Positions 52,539-62,869 of a DNA stretch of 64,000 nucleotides are shown one piece after another. A program made the position numbers and the translations under genes. Every line of letters starts with the position of its first letter. The first letter of the stretch is position 1. The DNA comes from Nocardioides scoriae (GTDB lineage Bacteria > Actinomycetota > Actinomycetes > Propionibacteriales > Nocardioidaceae). The DNA lies in assembly GCF_900104965.1 (NCBI RefSeq), contig NZ_LT629757.1, positions 2,728,001 through 2,792,000 of the forward strand, read 5' to 3'. Under the pieces are notes generated by a model. That model was not told the DNA's origin and made no database searches. It saw only the letters and a list, made by a program, of their open reading frames with translations.

Positions 52539-52593
52539 AGATGGGCTCCGCAGGTAGCCGACACGCCGCCTCGGCTCACACAAGGGAGCATTG

Positions 52594-54273
52594 ATGAAGG
52601 ACCTGGCCGCAGGAGAGCTGCCGCTGCGAAAGATCTTCTCGAGCGATTTCGAGTTTGCTATCCCTGACTATCAGCGGCCTTACGCCTGGGGCAGAGAACA
52701 AGCTCTGCAGCTGCTGGACGACCTCGAGGGAGCCCTGTCCAGAGACACCGACGAGCCGTACTTCCTCGGTTCAATCGTTCTGGTCAAGAAGAGCGTCGAC
52801 TCTCGCGCCGATGTGATCGACGGACAGCAGCGCCTCACCACATTGAGCATCCTGTTCGCAGTGTTGCGAGATCTCACCAGCAACTCTCAGCTGGCGTCCG
52901 AGCTGGCAAGGATCGTCGTGGAGCCGGGCGAGATCATGGCCGGTACCAGCACCAAGCCCCGTCTCACCCTGCGGAAAAGAGACGCCACCTTCTTCACGAA
53001 CCACGTCCAGACCCCCGGCGCCATATCTCAACTGGTCTCGCTCGACGACTCGCAACTGGCAACAGACGCCCAGCGGGCCATCAAGTACAACGCCATGGCA
53101 TTCCAGCAGCGATTGTCAGCGTGGACTGACGACAAACGCCGCAGCCTCGCGGCGATGCTCGGCTCCCGGACCTTCCTGGTAGTCGTCAGCACACCCGACT
53201 TGAACAGCGCTCACCGGATCTTCAGCGTGATGAATGCACGTGGCCTTGACCTGACTCCGGCCGACATCTTCAAGTCCAAGGTAATCGGCGACATCGGGGA
53301 CACGGATGGCAACGCTCTGGAGTACGCCGAGAAGTGGGAACAAGAGGAGGTCGACCTCGGTCGCGATGCATTCGCAGAGTTGTTCGGCCACATTCGCACG
53401 ATCTTCCTGAAGGAGCGTGCCAGCAAGGTGCTTCTCCAGGAGTTCGACGAAGGTGTCCTGAGCCGTTATCTCCCCGGCACTGGGCGACAGTTCGTCGACG
53501 ACGTGCTTATCCCCTACTCGGACGCCTACGAGCGGCTTCTGACACAGAACTTCCCGGACGACGCCACCTGGGGACCGGTGAACAACTGGCTGCGGAGGCT
53601 CATGCAGGTCGACAACGACAGTTGGCGACCGCCAGCGCTGTGGGCCCTTCGAGAGCACAAGAACGATCCCCGGACGCTTGCTGACCTCCTCCAGAAGCTG
53701 GAGCGCCTCGCAGCCAGCATGTTGTTGCGACGGGTGTACGCGACCCCTCGAGGGATCCGGTATGCCGATCTGCTGAAGCAGCTGGAACGCGGCGAAGGCC
53801 TGAGCGCGGCCGCATTCGAGCTCTCGGAAGACGAGGTCAAAGACACGCGGCGCAAGCTCGACGACCACATCTATCTGGTGGCGCCCGTGCGCCGGTATGT
53901 GCTGCTCCGACTCGACGAGCTGCTGGCCAAGCAACCTGGGGTCAGTTATCAGCACAAGATGATCACCGTCGAACACGTGCTGCCGCAGAATCCGCGGACA
54001 GATAGCAGCTGGGTGCGCGACTTCACCGAAGAGCAGCGGCAAGACTGGACGCACCGCCTCGGCAATCTGGTGCTGCTGAATCGTGCGAAGAACAGCGAGG
54101 CACAGAACTACGACTTCGCGAAGAAGAAGGACAAGTACTTCAGTGGCAGCAACGGGAGCGCAGTATTCGCTTTAACGACCCAAGTCTTGACGACAGCCAA
54201 CTGGACACCAGCGGTGCTGCAGCAGCGGCAGGCGGATCTGACTTCTGCGCTGATTGCCGAATGGTCCTTGTAA
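52594..54273 (+). CDS. DUF262-DUF1524 protein (GmrSD-type modification-dependent nuclease)
   Basis: A 559-residue single-chain fusion. The N-terminal DUF262 (GmrS-like) has 'IPDYQRPYAWGREQALQLLDDL' and 'VIDGQQRLTTLSILFAVL' near residues 20-90. A long helical middle follows. The C-terminal DUF1524 (GmrD-like) HNH nuclease shows 'ITVEHVLPQNP' and 'HRLGNLVLLNRAKNSEAQNYDFAKKKDKYF' near residues 455-520. Family members cut glucosylated or otherwise modified phage DNA in an NTP-dependent way. ATG at 52594 (TTG just before is ignored) follows AGGGAG. It is convergent to the other island genes. Confidence 0.88.
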   Translation: MKDLAAGELPLRKIFSSDFEFAIPDYQRPYAWGREQALQLLDDLEGALSRDTDEPYFLGSIVLVKKSVDSRADVIDGQQRLTTLSILFAVLRDLTSNSQLASELARIVVEPGEIMAGTSTKPRLTLRKRDATFFTNHVQTPGAISQLVSLDDSQLATDAQRAIKYNAMAFQQRLSAWTDDKRRSLAAMLGSRTFLVVVSTPDLNSAHRIFSVMNARGLDLTPADIFKSKVIGDIGDTDGNALEYAEKWEQEEVDLGRDAFAELFGHIRTIFLKERASKVLLQEFDEGVLSRYLPGTGRQFVDDVLIPYSDAYERLLTQNFPDDATWGPVNNWLRRLMQVDNDSWRPPALWALREHKNDPRTLADLLQKLERLAASMLLRRVYATPRGIRYADLLKQLERGEGLSAAAFELSEDEVKDTRRKLDDHIYLVAPVRRYVLLRLDELLAKQPGVSYQHKMITVEHVLPQNPRTDSSWVRDFTEEQRQDWTHRLGNLVLLNRAKNSEAQNYDFAKKKDKYFSGSNGSAVFALTTQVLTTANWTPAVLQQRQADLTSALIAEWSL

Positions 54274-54643: not shown

Positions 54644-57600
54644 TCAGTCGGTATTGCTGGTCTCAGACCAGAGGTAGTCGAACTCCGTGAATGCAAGCTT
54701 GTCACCGTACTGATCGATGTTGTCCTTCACGTTGACGATCAGCACACGTTCGGAACCACCGTTCAATGGTCCGCGCAGGCCACGCCCGATCATCTGCTGA
54801 TAGAGGTTTGCGCTGAAAGTCGGGCGCGTGACGTAGACGGCCCGCACCCTCGGAGCGTCAAAACCCTGTGACAACACGTTGTAGTTCGTGATGACGCGGA
54901 TGCGACCGGCTTTGAACTCGTCGATGTACCACCGCCGAACCGGGCCAGGCGTGCTCGCATCGATGGCAACGCTCGGAATGCCCTTGTGAACCAACTGCGC
55001 CGCGAGGGCACGCGCATTCTCGACGGAGCTAGCGAAGACGAGTGCTGGCCAGTCATCAGGGAGGCTCATCAGATCCTCGACGATGGTCTTGTTCCGCTCG
55101 ATGTCGGCGCCTAGCCGCGCTTCTACGTTCCGAGGCAGACGCCCGAAGCGTTCGACCTCTTCCTGCTCGAGCTTGCTGAGTCGAACTTGCGCGCCGTCGA
55201 TGACGCGCTGCTCGACTTGAGCGAGGATCCTCTTGGCTTGGAGCACCGGATAAGGCTCGTCGTCCTCGAACGCCTTGCCGTCCAGCCGGTTGCCGTCGTA
55301 CCTGTTGACGAGGCGTCGCGTCTCTTCGACGTTGGTGTTTCGGAAGGGCGTCGCGGTGAGCCCGATGAGCGGCCTGTCCTCCCTGCGCGTGCGAGCCTTT
55401 CGTCCTAACCACTCGAGCACTTTCGTGTACATCGGCGACACGGACGTGTGTGCTTCGTCGACGACCACCACCGAGGTCTCCGTCATCCAGGCGTAGTCGG
55501 GTTGAGCGTCCTTCTCCTTGAGCTTTTGAGGCGTAGCGACAACCAGTTGGATGGCTGACGTTTCCTCGGACACCTCGTTGTTGCCCCACAGGCGGCCAAT
55601 GGCCAGTGGTTCGCGGGGCCCTACCGACCGCCAGATGTAGGACCATGTCTCCACAGCCTGCTCGCACAATTCGTCGCTTTGGGCGATCCATACGATCGGC
55701 CCCCGGAGCTCGCCATCCCGAATTTCTTCGACCAGTGCCTGAACCGCCACCCGGGTCTTCCCGGCACCAGTCGGAAGCGAGACGAGGCCGCGGCGCGGTT
55801 GTCCTCCTTGAACCATGGACCGGATGTTCTCGACACAGATCTCCTGGTAGTCGTGCAGATCACCGAGTTCCGTCGGGCCCTCGACCACGAAGTTCGCCGG
55901 GCGAGGCTGGCCCGCGAAGCCAGCCAACTCGGGAGCGAACCCGAGCTCTGTGACCCAATTCCGAGTCGACCGCTGGCCCGCCCACGTTTGCGGGGGATTC
56001 AGCCCTTTCTCGTCCAGAACGGCTCGGAAGTGCGACAACGTCGTCACTCCCTGGACGGCAAGAACCAGGCGTGCCAGCTCGACCGGGTCCTCGATTACAC
56101 CTTGCTCGAGCTCGATTGCCTCGAGCGCAGCGCGTGGCAGCGTCCGGCGAAGCACCTCAGCGTCAACCAATAAGGAGAGCCTCGTCGCGTCGTCCGGAGC
56201 CCGTCTCAACTGTGTGACAAGCACTCGTCGGGCCTCGTTCTCAACTTGATCGAGGACCGAACGTACGTCTGCTGGGCCCATGTCAAGCCCCAACGACCGT
56301 GACACGCCCCGGAGAACGGCAGCAGGGTCTGGAGATGTGACCAGAACGGTTCCCTCATGCAATGCACTGTCTACGGCTCTTGCACGCTGCCCCTGGGGGG
56401 TTGCCGACACAATGCTGATCTCGGAACACACTTGGAAGCGCGTTTCCTGCTGCTCAGGTGACAGCCACAGCTTCATGGCGGGAAAGTGGAACACCACCGA
56501 CTCCGGGTCGCCGGTCGCGCTGAAAACAAGCTCCTGCTCGAGCAAGCGTGTTCCCTCAGCGAGACCCCATGATGCTTGTAGAGCCTCGGCGTCGCCCTCG
56601 TCCTCAACGAACACCACTGGTATCTGTTGTTCACGGAGTGACTGCAACACGTCCCTGTTGCGCACAACGGCCACCTCACGTGGTGGTCTCACACCGACCG
56701 TCGAACCGACGTGAGCCAAGATCCGCTGAGGAGCTTCACTGAAGTGCACGGCCCACGAGTAGAAGCGAGCCGAACGGTCCGGATCATCGTGCCAAGTCAC
56801 GGCGACACCGTGTAGGGCGCTCCACGCAAGAGCACTGAGGTCGATGGGGTCGGTCCTCACCCCCAGTTGCTCAGCAACCACCGTGGGAAGCTCCACGGTC
56901 GGCAGGACGTCGGGCGGCATGTCATCCGACGCAATGAGGCAGAAGCCTGGGACCAAGGGGCCGAATGAGGTTTCCAACCTCCCGTGCTCTCGAATCCGCT
57001 GAATGGCGGGGTTCCGGTATTTCTTCCGACCGTATTGAGTCTGAGTGGCGTGCCGCACCTGGATCGCGTCGGTCGACGCCAGTTGGAGGACCCGACGGGT
57101 GACAGCTTCCCGCGCTGGGTCGGGCAGGCGATCGAGGGACTGGAGCGGCCACGGAAGACCGCCCTCATCAAGTACAACCAAGCGGTCCATCTGCGGCTTC
57201 GCACCGTCGCACGACTCGACGAAGTGGTCTTTGATCTGGTCGTGGTAGCGATCCAGCCACATTTCCGCTTGACCCCCCTGACGCAGCAGCGGCTGATCGA
57301 CCGCGCCGAGGCTGCTGATCAGAGCCCGCTCCTGCTCATGGAAGCGGCTGTCGAGGCAGAACGGGGCGTTGGCGCCGATACCTGGCGCCAAGACCGGGCC
57401 CGGCAAGAAGGTCTCGTTCAACGGCCGGAATTGCCCGGTGAGGGTCCGCACCTGTACATGGTGCTCCACGGGCGCCGGCAGCTCATCGGCAAGGATTGTC
57501 CTGGCGACTTCGACCGTGCACTGTCGGGCAAGGGACCATGCCTTGGCCCAATCCACCGAGCGCGGGTCTCTTGCACGTGCCAGGACGTGGCGAAGTTCGC

Positions 57601-59278
57601 CTGCACGGTCCAGCACCTGTACACCCACCAGCGCGAGGGCCGCCAGGGCCACGGGCATCTTGGCAAGCTCCGGGTGGATGAACTGGAAGTTGCCGTCGTC
57701 AGGCGACGAACGGATGAAGATCTTTCCGCGAGCGGGTCTGGCCCAGGTCCCGTTCTCGAGGAGCACGACGCGTGCGCTGAGCGGGTCGCCGTCCCGACGG
57801 GCCCCACCTGGTGCGAGTGCAGCGAGGATCGCCAGTGCCTGCGCCGAGCCCTCAGCTGTGAAGCCCTCGCCTCTGGCAGCCTCGATCCACCGCTCAATTC
57901 TGGGAATGGGCGGTATAGGGCCCATGAGTCGCTCCGCCTTCGAGCGGCGTTCTGTGTTCGACACACACCGAGGGTCGATCCATCCGGGCAGTTTGCCGAC
58001 TCCGACCCTCCACAGGGCCATGACGTCGTCCGCGATGTCAGGTGGCTGCATGGCAAGGTCGCGAGGACGGCGAAGCGTTCCCGTGGTGTCCGGCAAGCTG
58101 GGGATTTCTCGTAACGCCTTGAAGACGGGCTCGTTCAGCACGCCGTCTGCCCAGGAACGAAGTTCCTTGCCGCGACCTGGAAGCAGATCGAGGCTCGTCT
58201 GCGGCGTTGCTCGATCGACCACCTTGTGCCATGCCGCGGCAACCATTGCCGGGAGGACCTCGGTCAGAATCTCCTGATTGAATCTGCCTTCGAGCAGCCG
58301 ACGACGGTCCTCGGACAGCTTCCACGTGGTGTTGACGATGCCTGCCAATGTGCTTCGGTCGTCAGTGGGAAAGAACGCCCAGAACTGGCCCTCTTGACGC
58401 CGCCGCCCCGATCTCGGAACGGCCCAGCTCACCTTCACTGCTTCCCTACGTGCCAGCTCACCTGCGTCCTCCAGCGCCAGCTTGGAGGGGCGGAATTGGC
58501 GATCGACCACGACCCACTCGGACCGCTCCTCACCGACGGTCAGCTCGTACACGTCTTTGCCCCTGGCCGCCACTCCGATACGGCGCGCAATCTCGTCTGC
58601 TCGGTTCTCAAGCACCAGCTCGCGGGCCTGAGGCGAGAAGAGCATGAACTCCGAGGGGAAGTCTGCGAGATCCTCCTTCACGCCCGTGGCGTCGCGATCG
58701 AGAGGAATGCGGATGACAGTGCTCGCCCAGTCCATCAATTCGGCCAGCACCCGATCCTGACGGGCCTCCGCTTCCGGATCGAGTGGCGTGGCAAGACGCA
58801 GGACGGGAAATCGGGGGGCATCCGGGACCACGCGCCGAATACGCTCCCTCGTGACCTCACGGTCGAAGCCGAACGAGCCTGAACGACTGAACACCTGCGG
58901 GCGATCACTCAGCGCGACGACTGACTTGAACCCGAGCCCGAATCGTCCGATCGACTCGTCGCGCTTGCCGGATTGGTGGGAGCCGAGGAGGGATCGGACC
59001 CCGTCCTCGGTGAGAGGTGACCCCTGGTTGGCGACGTAGAGGACGTCGTAGGTCAGGACCACATGAATGCGGCCCGTCGTGCCCTGGAGGGCGTCAGCGG
59101 CATTCTGGACGAGCTCGAAGATCTGCTTACGGCCGTACCCGCCCTCGAAGATCGTCGTCTCGATGTTCGCGTCCGACTCGACCCGGATCGGCTGCTCACG
59201 GTACGCGGCGAGGCATCGGTTCGACTCCGCTGTCACCAGCTCGGACAACCCACTGGTGGGTCCGGCCCAATCGGTCAT
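54644..59278 (-). CDS. Giant GHKL (Hsp90/sacsin-like) ATPase fused to DEAD/DEAH helicase
   Basis: A 1544-residue protein. N-terminal GHKL ATPase: N-box 'QIFELVQNAADAL' (Asn59), then 'SIGRFGLGFKSV' near residue 112, as in sacsin/Hsp90-type ATPases. About 900 residues of uncharacterised sequence follow. The C-terminal SF2 helicase occupies about residues 1140-1544, with 'LVSLPTGAGKTRVAVQAL', 'VVVVDEAHTSVSP', 'GLTATPFRN' and motif VI 'YQQMIGRGLRGP'. ATG 59278 follows GGGGG; a GTG six bases upstream is less likely. It lies downstream of UvrD and the cytosine methyltransferase on the same strand. Codon use is less GC-biased than the chromosomal genes. A defence ATPase-helicase is the likeliest role. 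Confidence 0.88.
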   Translation of the reverse strand: MTDWAGPTSGLSELVTAESNRCLAAYREQPIRVESDANIETTIFEGGYGRKQIFELVQNAADALQGTTGRIHVVLTYDVLYVANQGSPLTEDGVRSLLGSHQSGKRDESIGRFGLGFKSVVALSDRPQVFSRSGSFGFDREVTRERIRRVVPDAPRFPVLRLATPLDPEAEARQDRVLAELMDWASTVIRIPLDRDATGVKEDLADFPSEFMLFSPQARELVLENRADEIARRIGVAARGKDVYELTVGEERSEWVVVDRQFRPSKLALEDAGELARREAVKVSWAVPRSGRRRQEGQFWAFFPTDDRSTLAGIVNTTWKLSEDRRRLLEGRFNQEILTEVLPAMVAAAWHKVVDRATPQTSLDLLPGRGKELRSWADGVLNEPVFKALREIPSLPDTTGTLRRPRDLAMQPPDIADDVMALWRVGVGKLPGWIDPRCVSNTERRSKAERLMGPIPPIPRIERWIEAARGEGFTAEGSAQALAILAALAPGGARRDGDPLSARVVLLENGTWARPARGKIFIRSSPDDGNFQFIHPELAKMPVALAALALVGVQVLDRAGELRHVLARARDPRSVDWAKAWSLARQCTVEVARTILADELPAPVEHHVQVRTLTGQFRPLNETFLPGPVLAPGIGANAPFCLDSRFHEQERALISSLGAVDQPLLRQGGQAEMWLDRYHDQIKDHFVESCDGAKPQMDRLVVLDEGGLPWPLQSLDRLPDPAREAVTRRVLQLASTDAIQVRHATQTQYGRKKYRNPAIQRIREHGRLETSFGPLVPGFCLIASDDMPPDVLPTVELPTVVAEQLGVRTDPIDLSALAWSALHGVAVTWHDDPDRSARFYSWAVHFSEAPQRILAHVGSTVGVRPPREVAVVRNRDVLQSLREQQIPVVFVEDEGDAEALQASWGLAEGTRLLEQELVFSATGDPESVVFHFPAMKLWLSPEQQETRFQVCSEISIVSATPQGQRARAVDSALHEGTVLVTSPDPAAVLRGVSRSLGLDMGPADVRSVLDQVENEARRVLVTQLRRAPDDATRLSLLVDAEVLRRTLPRAALEAIELEQGVIEDPVELARLVLAVQGVTTLSHFRAVLDEKGLNPPQTWAGQRSTRNWVTELGFAPELAGFAGQPRPANFVVEGPTELGDLHDYQEICVENIRSMVQGGQPRRGLVSLPTGAGKTRVAVQALVEEIRDGELRGPIVWIAQSDELCEQAVETWSYIWRSVGPREPLAIGRLWGNNEVSEETSAIQLVVATPQKLKEKDAQPDYAWMTETSVVVVDEAHTSVSPMYTKVLEWLGRKARTRREDRPLIGLTATPFRNTNVEETRRLVNRYDGNRLDGKAFEDDEPYPVLQAKRILAQVEQRVIDGAQVRLSKLEQEEVERFGRLPRNVEARLGADIERNKTIVEDLMSLPDDWPALVFASSVENARALAAQLVHKGIPSVAIDASTPGPVRRWYIDEFKAGRIRVITNYNVLSQGFDAPRVRAVYVTRPTFSANLYQQMIGRGLRGPLNGGSERVLIVNVKDNIDQYGDKLAFTEFDYLWSETSNTD

Positions 59279-59363
59279 TTGCACTACCCCCGAGATTGAT
59301 CAGTCGATGTCGAGAAGTTGGTTCTTTCTATCAACAGGGTCCGATTTCTGTGGCTGAAGTCGC

Positions 59364-61076
59364 TCAGCGCAAGAACGTCGCCAACCCGGAGATGGTCGGC
59401 ACGGCGGCGAGCGATGGCTTCCCGGCTCGGTCCCGGACCACTCCGGTCACGACCCCCTCCACCCCGATGCCGCCGGCCAGATCGGGCCAACCCCATCGTG
59501 ACCCCACGGTTCCCGCCTCGACTCGGCGCGCGACCAGTTCTCCGAAGGCGGGGGTCGTGTGTCCGATCCGACGCTCTGCCGAGCGGACCTCCCAGACCGG
59601 AACCCCAAGTGTGGACGAGCGGCGATCGAAGGCCGCTGCAACTCGTCCTCCGATCACAATCTCGTCGGCCTCGATGTCCGGATCGATCGCGATGTCATCC
59701 GGCCTGAGCTCGATCGCCGCCGTCATCCACCGCTGATGGCCGCCGACGATCCAGCGGCCAGTGGTCTTGTCGTAATGGAAGAATCTCGGCCGGTCCAGCC
59801 CCGCTCCCACAAGCCTGTCCCGCGCGCGGGTGAGCGCGACATAAGCGACCGAACTGCCGTCCGGTTCTCGCATCCCGTCGGGATCGACCACGACGACGTT
59901 GTCGAACTCGAGCCCCTTGGCCCGATGCACCGTCGACACCACCACCGGGCCGGGCCCCGCACCGAGGGCAGCAGGAAAGTCACCGAGGTCCACCCGCATG
60001 GTCAGACGCGCAATGTCGATCCGATCTGCGACGCGCAGGTTGCGCTCGGTCGCCTTGAGTAGCCGCCAGGAGGCTTCGGGATCAGACACCACTCCGGTGA
60101 GACGATCAATCACATCGGTTTTGGTGATGGACGTGGTGGAACCTGAGACCGCTCGTGCGACCCAGGTCTCCAGAGGCTGCTTCTCGACAAGCGGCCGAAG
60201 TCTTGCCGTGACCTCCAGTTCGCGAAGCACTCCCGCGACGACGAGCGCATCACCGTTCGTTCGGCACAGAAATGCAGTGGTTCCAGGCCATCTGGCGACA
60301 GGTCGTGCCACACCCGCCACGTCACCCATCGTCAGGACAGAGCCGAGGTGGTCCTCCACCGCTTGCGTCCACTCCCCGCCGTCGAGATCGGTCGCGCCGA
60401 GTGACGCGACCGATCTCGCGTCTTCGGACCTCGCTCGGTACTGACCCAGGAGGCGAACGCGATCGACGGGGTGTCGCCCGCTGAGCAACGCCGCCTCGTC
60501 GAGGAAGTCACGCGCCGTCATGTCTGTTGCGTCGGTGAGCTGGAAGTCGTAGAGCGCCTGGCGCGGGTCCCCGAGCAAGGTGAAGCCTGCCCCCTCTGGG
60601 AGAGCTCGAAGAAGGTCGAGCACAAAGCGTGCACGAATCCCGACGAGGTCCTGGACCTCGTCGACCACCACGTGGCCGAGCAACGAGAGCGATTCGCTGG
60701 CTGCGCCAGCAGCCAGCACCGCGCGGATCCGCTCGATCCGGCCGTCGAAGTCGAGACCAGCCCAGTCGTCTGCCGCCACCTCATCGAGCAGCATGGTCGC
60801 GGTGCTGTCGATCGTCCGAATGGTCGGGAGCGGACGGGCCGATCGGGGACCGAGCCGGCTACGAAGCGCCGCGACGGCAGCCCGCGAGAAGCTCAAGACG
60901 AGAACTTCGTCGACGACGTCGAGGTCGTGCAGCTCAGCGAGTGCATCGACCCGGGCGGCGACCACCTCGGTCTTGCCGCTCCCCGGCGCCGCGAGCACGA
61001 TCTGCCGTGCGTCCGGCTCCGCCTCTGCGACTGCCACCTGCTCGGCGTCGAGACCGTGCGAGACCCCCTCACGCAC
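59364..61076 (-). CDS. UvrD/Rep-like superfamily 1 helicase
   Basis: A 570-residue SF1 helicase, shorter than housekeeping UvrD. Motifs in order: Q-motif 'LDAEQVAVAEA', Walker A 'LAAPGSGKT' (residues 28-36), 'VVVDEVQDLVG', 'LLGDPRQALYDF', 'LLGQYRARSEDARS', 'VSTVHRAKGLEFDNVVVVD' and 'VAYVALTRARDRLV'. A C-terminal extension of about 130 residues lacks recognisable nuclease motifs. GTG at 61076 lies 7 bases after the methyltransferase stop with GAGG upstream, so it is co-translated with the methyltransferase. It is followed after 85 bases by the GHKL-helicase. Confidence 0.88.
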   Translation of the reverse strand: MREGVSHGLDAEQVAVAEAEPDARQIVLAAPGSGKTEVVAARVDALAELHDLDVVDEVLVLSFSRAAVAALRSRLGPRSARPLPTIRTIDSTATMLLDEVAADDWAGLDFDGRIERIRAVLAAGAASESLSLLGHVVVDEVQDLVGIRARFVLDLLRALPEGAGFTLLGDPRQALYDFQLTDATDMTARDFLDEAALLSGRHPVDRVRLLGQYRARSEDARSVASLGATDLDGGEWTQAVEDHLGSVLTMGDVAGVARPVARWPGTTAFLCRTNGDALVVAGVLRELEVTARLRPLVEKQPLETWVARAVSGSTTSITKTDVIDRLTGVVSDPEASWRLLKATERNLRVADRIDIARLTMRVDLGDFPAALGAGPGPVVVSTVHRAKGLEFDNVVVVDPDGMREPDGSSVAYVALTRARDRLVGAGLDRPRFFHYDKTTGRWIVGGHQRWMTAAIELRPDDIAIDPDIEADEIVIGGRVAAAFDRRSSTLGVPVWEVRSAERRIGHTTPAFGELVARRVEAGTVGSRWGWPDLAGGIGVEGVVTGVVRDRAGKPSLAAVPTISGLATFLR

Positions 61077-61083
61077 GACGACC

Positions 61084-62136
61084 TCAGGCCAGACGGTCTG
61101 CGACGACGGTGGCGATCGACCGGGCGAGGGGCGGCGGCACGGCGTTGCCGATCTGACGGGCGATCGACACCTTCGTGCCGCACCACTCGAAGTCCTCGGG
61201 AAAGCCCTGGATGGACGCCGCCTCGGCATGGGTGATGGGCCGGTCCTCCGTCGGGTGGAGGTAACGCCCCTTCTCAGGCTTGAAGAACTCCGTGCGAATC
61301 GTCACCGACGGCCGGTCCCAACGCAAGCGGCCCATCACGTCGCCCGACCCGCTACGGTGACGCCGCCAGCAGGGGCTCGACAACTCGTCAGGTAGGTCGA
61401 ATCGATTGCCGCCCGGCGGAATGGCTGCGTAGCGGGCACGGGACAGGTCGCTCACGTCCCGCGTGATGTGCAGATCGCGCATCTTGAAGGGGCCTGGCAG
61501 CGTTCGACCGCGGAACTCGACCACACTGTCGGGCAGCTCGGTCTTCGTCACCCGGGGGGCGAGCCAGGCCGGGAAGGCGTCAGACAGCGAGCGGACGTCC
61601 CACAGCTCGGGGAGTCCGATCTCCCGGGTGCCGCGCCGTCGTCCGATCACAACCGCGCGGCGACGCGCCTGCGCCGCTCCGTGATCCGCGGCGTTGACGA
61701 CCTGCATTTCGATCTCGTAAGCACCCAGGCGGCCCCGGGCACGAACCAGGCCGGTGAGTTCGGCGAACTGAGTCGACTTGAGGAACTGCGGCACGTTCTC
61801 CATGACGAAGAAAGCGGGTCGGACCCGTTCCAAGGTCTCCACGTAGTGCTCCCACATCGCATTGCGGGGATCCTGCGGGTCGCGCGTGCCGAGTGAGGAA
61901 AAGCCCTGACAGGGGGGCCCGCCCACCACGACGTCGGCCTGGGGTAGCGAACCCCTGGTCCAGTCCGCGATGTCACCCACATGGATGTGGTCGCCGAAGT
62001 TCTGGGCGTACGTGGCCGCCGCGTGCAGATCCCACTCCACGGCGGCGATCGGGGCGAATCGCCCGGTCGAAACGAAACCCGAGGTCAGCCCCCCACAGCC
62101 GGCGAAAAGATCCATGAGCTTCGCTTCTCCCGACAC
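61084..62136 (-). CDS. DNA (cytosine-5)-methyltransferase
   Basis: A 350-residue C5-cytosine methyltransferase. Motif I 'MDLFAGCGGLTSGF' (residues 8-21), motif IV 'VVGGPPCQGFSS' with catalytic Cys76, 'VMENV' (motif VI), 'AQARRRAVVIG' (motif VIII), and motif X 'ARQIGNAVPPPLARSIATVV'. The target-recognition region lies at about residues 190-290. GTG at 62136 is 6 bases after TACGCT (62148-62143), a leaderless promoter of its own. Vsr lies upstream and two ATPase/helicases downstream; no ordinary restriction endonuclease is seen. Recognition sequence cannot be predicted. Confidence 0.94.
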   Translation of the reverse strand: MSGEAKLMDLFAGCGGLTSGFVSTGRFAPIAAVEWDLHAAATYAQNFGDHIHVGDIADWTRGSLPQADVVVGGPPCQGFSSLGTRDPQDPRNAMWEHYVETLERVRPAFFVMENVPQFLKSTQFAELTGLVRARGRLGAYEIEMQVVNAADHGAAQARRRAVVIGRRRGTREIGLPELWDVRSLSDAFPAWLAPRVTKTELPDSVVEFRGRTLPGPFKMRDLHITRDVSDLSRARYAAIPPGGNRFDLPDELSSPCWRRHRSGSGDVMGRLRWDRPSVTIRTEFFKPEKGRYLHPTEDRPITHAEAASIQGFPEDFEWCGTKVSIARQIGNAVPPPLARSIATVVADRLA

Positions 62137-62142
62137 GCCGGC

Positions 62143-62148
62143 AGCGTA
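62143..62148 (-). promoter_or_regulatory. -10 box of the methyltransferase gene
   Basis: TACGCT on the minus strand, 6 bases before the GTG start. It lies in the 41-base gap after vsr, so the methyltransferase can be expressed independently of the upstream genes, as needed to protect DNA before any restriction activity appears. Confidence 0.6.
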
Positions 62149-62177
62149 CGTGAGCGGGGGGACACTGTGCCGCAGGC

Positions 62178-62639
62178 TCACCACGGGCGCACGGCTGCGA
62201 CGACGCGCACGGCGGCCTCGCTCACCGCCTCGTGCTCCCACACCCGCACCACCGCCCATCCGGCGTCGATCAGCACGGCGTCCGTGTCACGGTCCCGCCG
62301 GACGTTTCCGGCCAGCTTCTCCGACCACCAGGCGCCGTTCGCCTTGGGCGACGTGGCGTGCTCCGGGCACGCGTGCCAGAAGCACCCGTCGACGAACACA
62401 GCCACCTGCCTGCGCGGGAAGGCGACGTCGATTGTTCTCCTGGGGCGGCCGGGGACCGGCCAGCCGATGCGGTAGCGCAGCCCGAGACGGTGCAGCTCAC
62501 GGCGCAGCGCCAGCTCCGGAACGGTGCCCAGCCGTCTCTGCCGGCTCATGCGTGACGCGACCTCTGCGGAGGACGCTCTGACGGGTCCGTTTCGTAGCGG
62601 CCCCGCCGCCGGCTCCCCGCCGTTCAGGCGAGCACCCAC
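62178..62639 (-). CDS. vsr: Very-short-patch repair (Vsr) endonuclease
   Basis: A protein of 153 residues (GTG 62639) or 123 (ATG 62549). The Vsr fold is clear: 'ELALRRELHRLGLRYRIGWPVPGRPRRTIDVAFPRRQVAVFVDGCFWHACPEHATSPKANGAWWSEKLAGNVRRDRDTDAVLIDAGWAVVRVWEHE', with catalytic Asp in 'TIDVAF', zinc-site His/Cys in 'CFWHACPEH' and catalytic His nearby. It nicks at T:G mismatches formed by deamination of 5-methylcytosine, matching the adjacent methyltransferase. The GTG start overlaps the upstream winged-helix gene by 16 bases. Confidence 0.92.
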   Translation of the reverse strand: MGARLNGGEPAAGPLRNGPVRASSAEVASRMSRQRRLGTVPELALRRELHRLGLRYRIGWPVPGRPRRTIDVAFPRRQVAVFVDGCFWHACPEHATSPKANGAWWSEKLAGNVRRDRDTDAVLIDAGWAVVRVWEHEAVSEAAVRVVAAVRPW

Positions 62640-62869
62640 GGGGTCCCGGGGCGCCGGCCGTTCGCCGGTCGCAGAACACCGCTGTCGCGCAGCGTCTGCG
62701 CCGCCCACCTGATGTCGTACTGCCAGGTGTAGAACAGGTCGCCGGAAGCGCGCAGATCATGCTCGTGACGCTGCCAGACCTCCCGTGCCACCTGCACCAC
62801 CGTCCCGCTCCCACCGAGGTTCTTCAGCGCCTCGATCACCCAGCTCTTCAGGTCACTCTTGGTCGCCAC
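62624..62869 (-). CDS. Small winged-helix protein (Mrr-N-like)
   Basis: An 81-residue protein that is one winged helix: 'SDLKSWVIEALKNLGGSGTVVQVAREVWQRHEHDLRASGDLFYTWQYDIRWAAQTLRDSGVLRPANGR..GTPWVLA'. This is the pattern of the N-terminal DNA-binding domain of Mrr-type restriction proteins, but without the nuclease. It could be a free-standing specificity or regulatory subunit for the neighbouring helicases. GTG at 62869 follows GGGGGAG. It starts 15 bases after the UvrD-like gene and overlaps vsr, so the three are co-transcribed. Confidence 0.78.
   Translation of the reverse strand: MATKSDLKSWVIEALKNLGGSGTVVQVAREVWQRHEHDLRASGDLFYTWQYDIRWAAQTLRDSGVLRPANGRRPGTPWVLA

Follow-up and report, generated by a model that had tools for sequence, protein, structure and literature searches.

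DISARM defence systems have been described in two classes, 1 and 2, which bring together DrmA, DrmB, DrmC, a methyltransferase and either DrmD or DrmE. According to the accessible portions of two papers, drmABC is common to both DISARM subtypes (PMC10270631), DrmC is dispensable and often missing, and DrmAB is autoinhibited until 5'-overhang DNA activates it (PMC9142583); how DrmAB stops phage without the PLD nuclease is posed as an open question in the same portion of the latter. Here we describe a related locus of Nocardioides scoriae, whose genome is a single contig of 4.06 Mb (NZ_LT629757.1). The window, the whole stretch of 64,000 nucleotides that was analysed, covers positions 2728001-2792000 and carries adjacent genes for a giant GHKL-DEAH helicase, a UvrD-type helicase of superfamily 1 (SF1) and a C5-cytosine DNA methyltransferase (Dcm). 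In a sequence-only reading, these three genes had been put forward as a candidate undescribed, modification-linked defence trio. Our analysis suggests that the trio probably lies at the downstream end of a defence locus of the DISARM family, whose inherited core comprises the GHKL-DEAH giant, a UvrD-type helicase, DrmA and DrmB.

The GHKL-helicase, uvrD and dcm genes end an array of 11 genes on one strand, about 29 kb long, that starts past the window edge and runs in the order drmA-drmB-armA-armB-armC-armD-ORF81-vsr-dcm-uvrD-GHKL helicase. In the open-frame reading, the 11 frames overlap, abut or lie at most 79 nt apart, so the set comprises 11 consecutive open frames from drmA onwards rather than three genes. 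The earlier statement that DrmA and DrmB were absent was wrong and was made because the window ended before drmB (78904-80625 in extended coordinates, minus strand) and drmA (80625-83708, minus strand, 1027 amino acids [aa]), which lie about 15-20 kb past its edge on the same strand as the GHKL gene. Both proteins exceeded their curated cut-offs. DrmA scored 962.5 bits with NF038325 (NCBI curated cut-off 950), matched the solved Serratia DrmA structure 7s9v (E 1e-169) and contained the catalytic motif patterns, and DrmB scored 473.8 bits with NF038324 (curated cut-off 240) and carried PF09369 (DUF1998/MZB).

With regard to the remaining DISARM components, two methyltransferases were found, namely Dcm, which matched the DrmMII models, and armB, which matched DrmMI (E 3.5e-57) although its best PADLOC name was a type IIG enzyme. 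The armA product scored 321.8 bits with DISARM_DrmD, which is under the cut-off of 610, and no DrmE was among the matches listed for the locus proteins in the profile scans. No DrmC (PLD nuclease) gene was found in the locus, all 10 PLDc_2 matches of the genome lying elsewhere, and none of the four core proteins encoded here showed a recognised nuclease domain. Because drmA, drmB and a methylase are present and DrmC is missing, we class the locus, on the grounds of these sequence matches, as a DISARM variant rather than as classical DISARM. The other proteins and the base composition described from the window were borne out: profile and motif matches supported the GHKL/DEAD giant, the UvrD-like SF1 helicase, the C5 methyltransferase, Vsr and the GmrSD-type gene, and the G+C fraction was about 0.61-0.69 over 52-64 kb versus 0.739 over window positions 1-46000. 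In extended coordinates, the lower values (0.61-0.72) reached from about 52 to 88 kb, a stretch of ~36 kb.

To describe the distribution of these genes, 394 genomes of the class were searched for the GHKL helicase and DrmA. Full-length GHKL helicases were found at 18 places in 17 of the genomes, own included, and drmA was present at all 18 loci. In 16 of them, the distance from the GHKL gene to a downstream drmA was at most about 3 kb; the exceptions were our locus and that of genome G118, with drmA 21 and 29 kb upstream, respectively, and other genes between. DrmA occurred in 64 of the 394 genomes, 47 of which had no full-length GHKL helicase, and the GHKL type is therefore a minority branch.

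A wider survey covered the best 79 GHKL loci among the matches listed in the genome collection, with gene neighbours identified by tblastn and a simple coding score rather than by a full gene caller. All 79 were labelled as Actinomycetota except L162, from a Holophagae metagenome-assembled genome (MAG), and L175, from a Dehalococcoidia MAG. The order GHKL helicase, SF1 helicase, DrmA, DrmB on one strand recurred in 70 loci, and the linkage of these genes thus exceeds chance. DrmA was found downstream on the same strand in 71 of the 79 and DrmB in 70. The nearest SF1 gene was of the UvrD type in 69 loci, a NERD-helicase in three and ArmD-like in one, and was not found in six; where the full order was seen (70 loci), UvrD occupied the SF1 slot in 67 and a NERD-helicase in three. 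Of the nine remaining loci, L115, L134, L159 and L179 each represent a second GHKL copy located next to another set; L163 and L165 kept the order as far as the contig end, and L173 corresponds to the locus of G118 with its upstream drmA. At L162, a DUF3800 gene stood next to the GHKL gene with 1.6 kb readable downstream, and at L175, an opposite-strand HNH gene stood there with 4.5 kb readable. A loose HKD-type PLD motif was seen in one of the 79 loci, which places DrmC outside the GHKL set. Two GHKL-helicase genes per region were observed in G290 (L036 and L039, about 43 kb apart), L134, L159/L168, L115/L160 and L179, and in such regions one copy carries the complete set. Furthermore, L199, L200 and their relatives showed NERD-helicase, DrmA and DrmB in this order without a GHKL gene, and some of these sets share Dcm, DUF6339 and HTH neighbours; they are a further DISARM-like variant.

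Co-inheritance was examined with a DrmA tree (FastTree, 121 rows, with long branches flagged for some). The tree took 67 of 71 GHKL-linked DrmA proteins (four lay outside 1000-1300 aa), our own and one of G290; L187, L188 and L190 were omitted by length, other GHKL loci of the class genomes did not enter the tree, and L072 is the same gene as L192. The 66 rows with GHKL and UvrD, own included, formed one group with a local Shimodaira-Hasegawa support of 100. The GHKL label changed twice on the tree compared with a mean of 39.5 after shuffling, and none of 500 shuffles was as low. We then performed Mantel comparisons with 300 permutations on length-limited sets thinned to below 75% identity (UvrD 59 to 29, DrmA 66 to 33, DrmB 63 to 32, Dcm 49 to 31, Vsr 36 to 18), in which Dcm and Vsr of the same loci served as a rough control. 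The correlation with GHKL was 0.91 for UvrD, 0.91 for DrmA and 0.87 for DrmB (permutation maxima 0.33-0.37). For Dcm, it was weak (r = 0.20), yet above all 300 permutations (maximum 0.17), and for Vsr there was none (r = -0.01). Because GHKL distances track those of UvrD, DrmA and DrmB, only weakly those of Dcm and not those of Vsr, the heritable unit, as judged from protein distances, is the GHKL helicase, the SF1 helicase (UvrD), DrmA and DrmB, with the methylase and Vsr exchangeable.

The GHKL-DEAH giant is encoded at 54644..59284 on the minus strand (1546 aa from the first GTG; NF047352, PF04851, PF00270 and PF00271). It consists of a sacsin/Hsp90-type GHKL ATPase (residues ~20-230), an alpha/beta middle (~230-1130) and an SF2 DEAH helicase (~1140-1530), whose best PDB match was the DNA repair helicase RadD. 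All GHKL and SF2 motif patterns tried were present, and in an 18-row alignment, the 17 other full-length proteins of the class shared 31-50% identity with the window protein. The middle had been proposed to hide the effector. In silico, it was predicted to fold with confidence; no nuclease fold was recognised in the predicted structure, and near-invariant polar residues were few in the conservation count over relatives (two of the 79 GHKL proteins, with frames >1720 aa, were left out), which leaves that proposal unsupported. Separate frames of ~600 aa resembling the helicase half of the giant without the GHKL part (L214:6130-7473 and L181:10449-12257) were seen in G057 and in the G290 region, close to DrmB-DrmA, and are perhaps a split or ancestral form.

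The following course of action can be proposed as likely. Self DNA would be marked by Dcm, perhaps by ArmB, or by whichever methylase is present. By homology with characterised DISARM, DrmAB would load on incoming DNA that is unmodified, at its single-stranded 5' ends. The GHKL domain may then close as an ATP-dependent clamp that couples the SF2 and SF1 motors to DrmAB-bound DNA, in a manner analogous to MutL driving UvrD. The motors would strip and unwind the invading DNA, and replication would stop. As the four core proteins have no recognised nuclease, any DNA cutting might come from Vsr, ArmC or host nucleases. A bolder version, which we regard as speculative and rather unlikely, is a nuclease-free DISARM in which the GHKL clamp with its SF2 helicase, the SF1 motor and DrmAB form one machine that mechanically halts invading DNA, and which in one actinobacterial branch merged with an ARMADA type II system into an eleven-gene complex with six helicase-type motors (GHKL-DEAH, UvrD, DrmA, ArmA, ArmC and ArmD).

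Several observations weigh against the assignment of the trio to a DISARM-family locus with this core and this mode of action. The core of our own locus is not contiguous, and UvrD before GHKL is the reverse of the order in the 70 full-order loci. The usual DISARM set is incomplete, since the DrmC PLD nuclease was not found in the locus. The 47 of 64 DrmA genomes without the GHKL helicase imply that DrmAB does not need it. The only two loci outside Actinomycetota, L162 and L175, do not show the set, and the three GHKL loci with a NERD-helicase fell on a different DrmA branch, together with DrmAB loci lacking GHKL. Linkage and shared species history raise Mantel values, and the test does not remove this effect. 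Nor was a known fold that would directly back the clamp step recognised in the middle of the GHKL protein.

In our locus, the core is split by a set resembling ARMADA type II, armA to armD, and by the exchangeable vsr and dcm. All four arm genes are on the minus strand, and the coordinates of the first three are extended ones. The armA gene (76010-79096, open frame of 1028 aa) encodes a SNF2/BrxHII/DrmD-type helicase, armB (71381-76009, 1542 aa) a PglX/IIG-type methyltransferase with NPPW, and armC (65089-71388, 2099 aa) a YprA/DruE-type helicase with MZB, whose nearest PADLOC names were DruE3/DruE1. The armD gene (62885-65089, of which the window holds the 3' part to 64000) encodes a GajB/UvrD-like helicase of 734 aa with about 255 residues ahead of the helicase match. 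Motif searches found NPPW in armB, both Walker motifs in armC and armD, and Walker A and motif VI in armA; the pattern searches gave no match for Walker B in armA or GxG in armB.

The strongest competing explanation is that three independent systems, namely the four-gene cassette, the ARMADA set and the Dcm/Vsr pair, share a defence island, and perhaps transcripts, without acting jointly; we rate it only a little below an even chance. Besides the low correlations of Dcm and Vsr with GHKL, it is favoured by the finding that ArmA/B/C matches occurred in the 10-kb flanks of only five of the best 79 loci. G104, the nearest relative by GHKL protein, had ArmA and ArmB, and no ArmC in the stretch examined. 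A whole-genome search matched by coordinates placed ArmC beside the locus in six of eight cases examined, most of which had been chosen for prior Arm matches. ArmC lay on the same strand at L102, L103, L104, L106 and L107; at L164, it lay beside the locus with the ARMADA genes on the opposite strand, and the genomes of L109 and L172 gave no ArmC at E 1e-50, and the last two results again suit separate systems. On the other hand, both sets are consecutive on one strand in our locus, in G290 (GHKL-UvrD-DrmA-DrmB-ArmA-ArmB-ArmC-ArmD), in G118 (UvrD-DrmA-DrmB ... Dcm-ArmA-ArmB-ArmC-ArmD-GHKL) and, by coordinates, at the five same-strand loci, and the close packing of our own frames also argues against independence. 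The gene orders differ between our locus, G290, G118 and L104 and therefore speak for repeated joining or shuffling, or for selection to stay together. In L210 and L211, divergent DrmA-like genes were followed by vsr and then by ArmA-ArmB 59-63% identical to our own.

A second alternative concerns the GHKL part, which, instead of clamping DNA, might sense a phage protein or complex in the manner of a chaperone and release the helicases when triggered. This appears unlikely, as its fusion to an SF2 helicase with RadD as the best PDB match and its constant partners DrmA, DrmB and SF1 helicase point to a DNA substrate.

A third alternative, that of the sequence-only reading, takes Dcm, UvrD and the GHKL helicase for an independent modification-dependent system outside DISARM. 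The UvrD/Rep-type SF1 helicase (open reading frame [ORF] 59364-61229, minus strand; inferred start GTG 61094 or 61076) has a C-terminal beta domain and all SF1 motif patterns tried. The DrmMII/DruM2-like Dcm (ORF 61084-62259, minus strand; start probably GTG 62136) matched PF00145 (E 1.7e-59), PADLOC DruM2 (5.5e-99) and PADLOC DrmMII (E 1e-42), and motifs I, IV, VI, VIII and X were all present. The Vsr endonuclease (62178..62708, minus strand; start probably near 62549) exceeded the cut-offs of PF03852 and TIGR00632 and contained two of three patterns, DGCFWHxCPxH and TIDVAF, with no match for the third (TPEL). The methyltransferase gene had been credited with its own promoter, but about 41 nt separate the end of vsr from the likely dcm start, and no sigma-70 site was found in 54-64 kb (shuffles gave a mean of 0.6) by a scan that other promoter types would escape.

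The sequence-only reading had suggested surveying homologues for co-occurrence of the three genes. UvrD-type helicases accompany GHKL, and Dcm lies near (within 10 kb in 73 of the best 79 loci; Vsr in 49). The constant partners, however, were DrmA and DrmB, which follow the helicases in 70 of the 79 loci and whose correlation with GHKL is far stronger than that of Dcm (0.87-0.91 versus 0.20), so that the methyltransferase is not a tied partner. Although the three genes are adjacent here and the weak Dcm correlation still tops every permutation, a separate Dcm trio is thus very improbable. The notion of a new modification-linked defence holds in so far as the set is of an antiviral type with motors instead of a classical endonuclease; it fails as a system apart from DISARM, because the GHKL and SF1 helicases are tied to DrmA/DrmB in 70 of the best 79 loci and in 18/18 of the class. 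Dcm and Vsr, and likewise MutL and UvrD, are established repair partners. Nevertheless, a very-short-patch or mismatch repair module of Dcm, Vsr, UvrD and GHKL, which would fit these pairings and the MutL-UvrD-Vsr parallel drawn for GHKL proteins of restriction-modification operons in the accessible part of PMC2292703, is likewise very improbable in view of the linkage to DrmAB and ARMADA-type genes, the patchy spread, the lower-GC stretch and the scant co-inheritance of Vsr and Dcm with GHKL.

Several neighbouring genes were also recorded. The GmrSD-type (type IV-like) gene at 52591-54273 on the plus strand is convergent with the GHKL gene and matched PADLOC Orf5 (E 8.6e-156) and also HEC-06. 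ORF81, an open frame of 81 residues between armD and vsr (62624..62869, minus strand), had no family match in the profile scans. Less than 1 kb upstream of drmA, within the lower-GC stretch, the opposite strand carries a gene for an LRAT-domain protein (L004:2563-3486, plus strand). In the wider survey, an HTH_3 protein of ~700 aa (PADLOC PDC-M33A; e.g., L042:9510-11648) matched the flanks of 49 of the 79 loci and a DUF6339 protein (PDC-M33C; e.g., L042:7691-8554) those of 50. These two genes, often from Streptomyces and mostly upstream of and divergent from the GHKL gene, are possibly a regulator or accessory pair. Near four of the class loci, a fusion of a Ser/Thr protein kinase with an FtsK/SpoIIIE motor was found, in five copies from four genomes (L061:6996-9089, with relatives in L059 [two], L062 and L065) by blastp clustering, one of them Pfam-scanned.

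A DISARM-family core with two helicase partners bears on how DrmAB acts without DrmC, since the Hsp90-type ATPase-helicase and the SF1 helicase regularly carried by this widespread DrmC-less branch are candidate DrmAB partners. The NERD-helicase variant indicates that the SF1 slot can bear its own nuclease-type domain. Physical linkage of DISARM and ARMADA genes also recurs among the loci, which offer a bacterial setting for sacsin-type GHKL ATPases alongside DNA motors. Among the literature matches listed, which covered few subscription papers, none described a DISARM locus with a GHKL helicase, and the GHKL-helicase DISARM variant is widespread and apparently undescribed.

Compared with known systems, the giant resembles PADLOC TmtA in its N-terminal ~410 residues (E 5e-47; the best matches span at most residues 13-423 of 1546), whereas its middle and helicase half had no match. 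With ARMADA type II, as far as the accessible part of Bell et al. 2025 (PMC12458937) describes it, the locus shares a BrxHII/DrmD-like armA, a PglX/IIG-like armB with NPPW, a YprA/DruE-like armC with MZB and a GajB-like armD with an N-terminal extension, in the published strict order (BrxHII-like, PglX-like, YprA-like, GajB-like). It differs in that the set stands after drmAB and before vsr-dcm-uvrD-GHKL on one strand, and GHKL, HATPase and MORC were not found in the paper's text, nor sacsin among the matches listed for it. ARMADA type II is further characterised by a Vsr-type nuclease at the C-terminus of its YprA helicase and by a RelE-like domain at the ArmD N-terminus. Restriction-modification operons of the MORC/paraMORC type (Iyer et al. 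2008, PMC2292703, accessible part), which are also marked by a MORC signature in the S5 domain, likewise combine a GHKL ATPase, an SF2 helicase, a cytosine methylase and Vsr, and motif and profile searches found all of these here, the GHKL ATPase with intact ATP motifs; in our locus, however, no separate restriction endonuclease gene was recognised, and GHKL and SF2 form one sacsin-type polypeptide accompanied by UvrD and DrmAB. With DISARM, the locus shares DrmA, DrmB, the DrmMII-type C5 methyltransferase and, nearby, an adenine-type methyltransferase gene, next to a helicase that matches DrmD below the cut-off; it differs in its missing DrmC, in having the GHKL-DEAH giant and the SF1 helicase as regular partners and in a DrmA that belongs to a separate branch of the DrmA tree.

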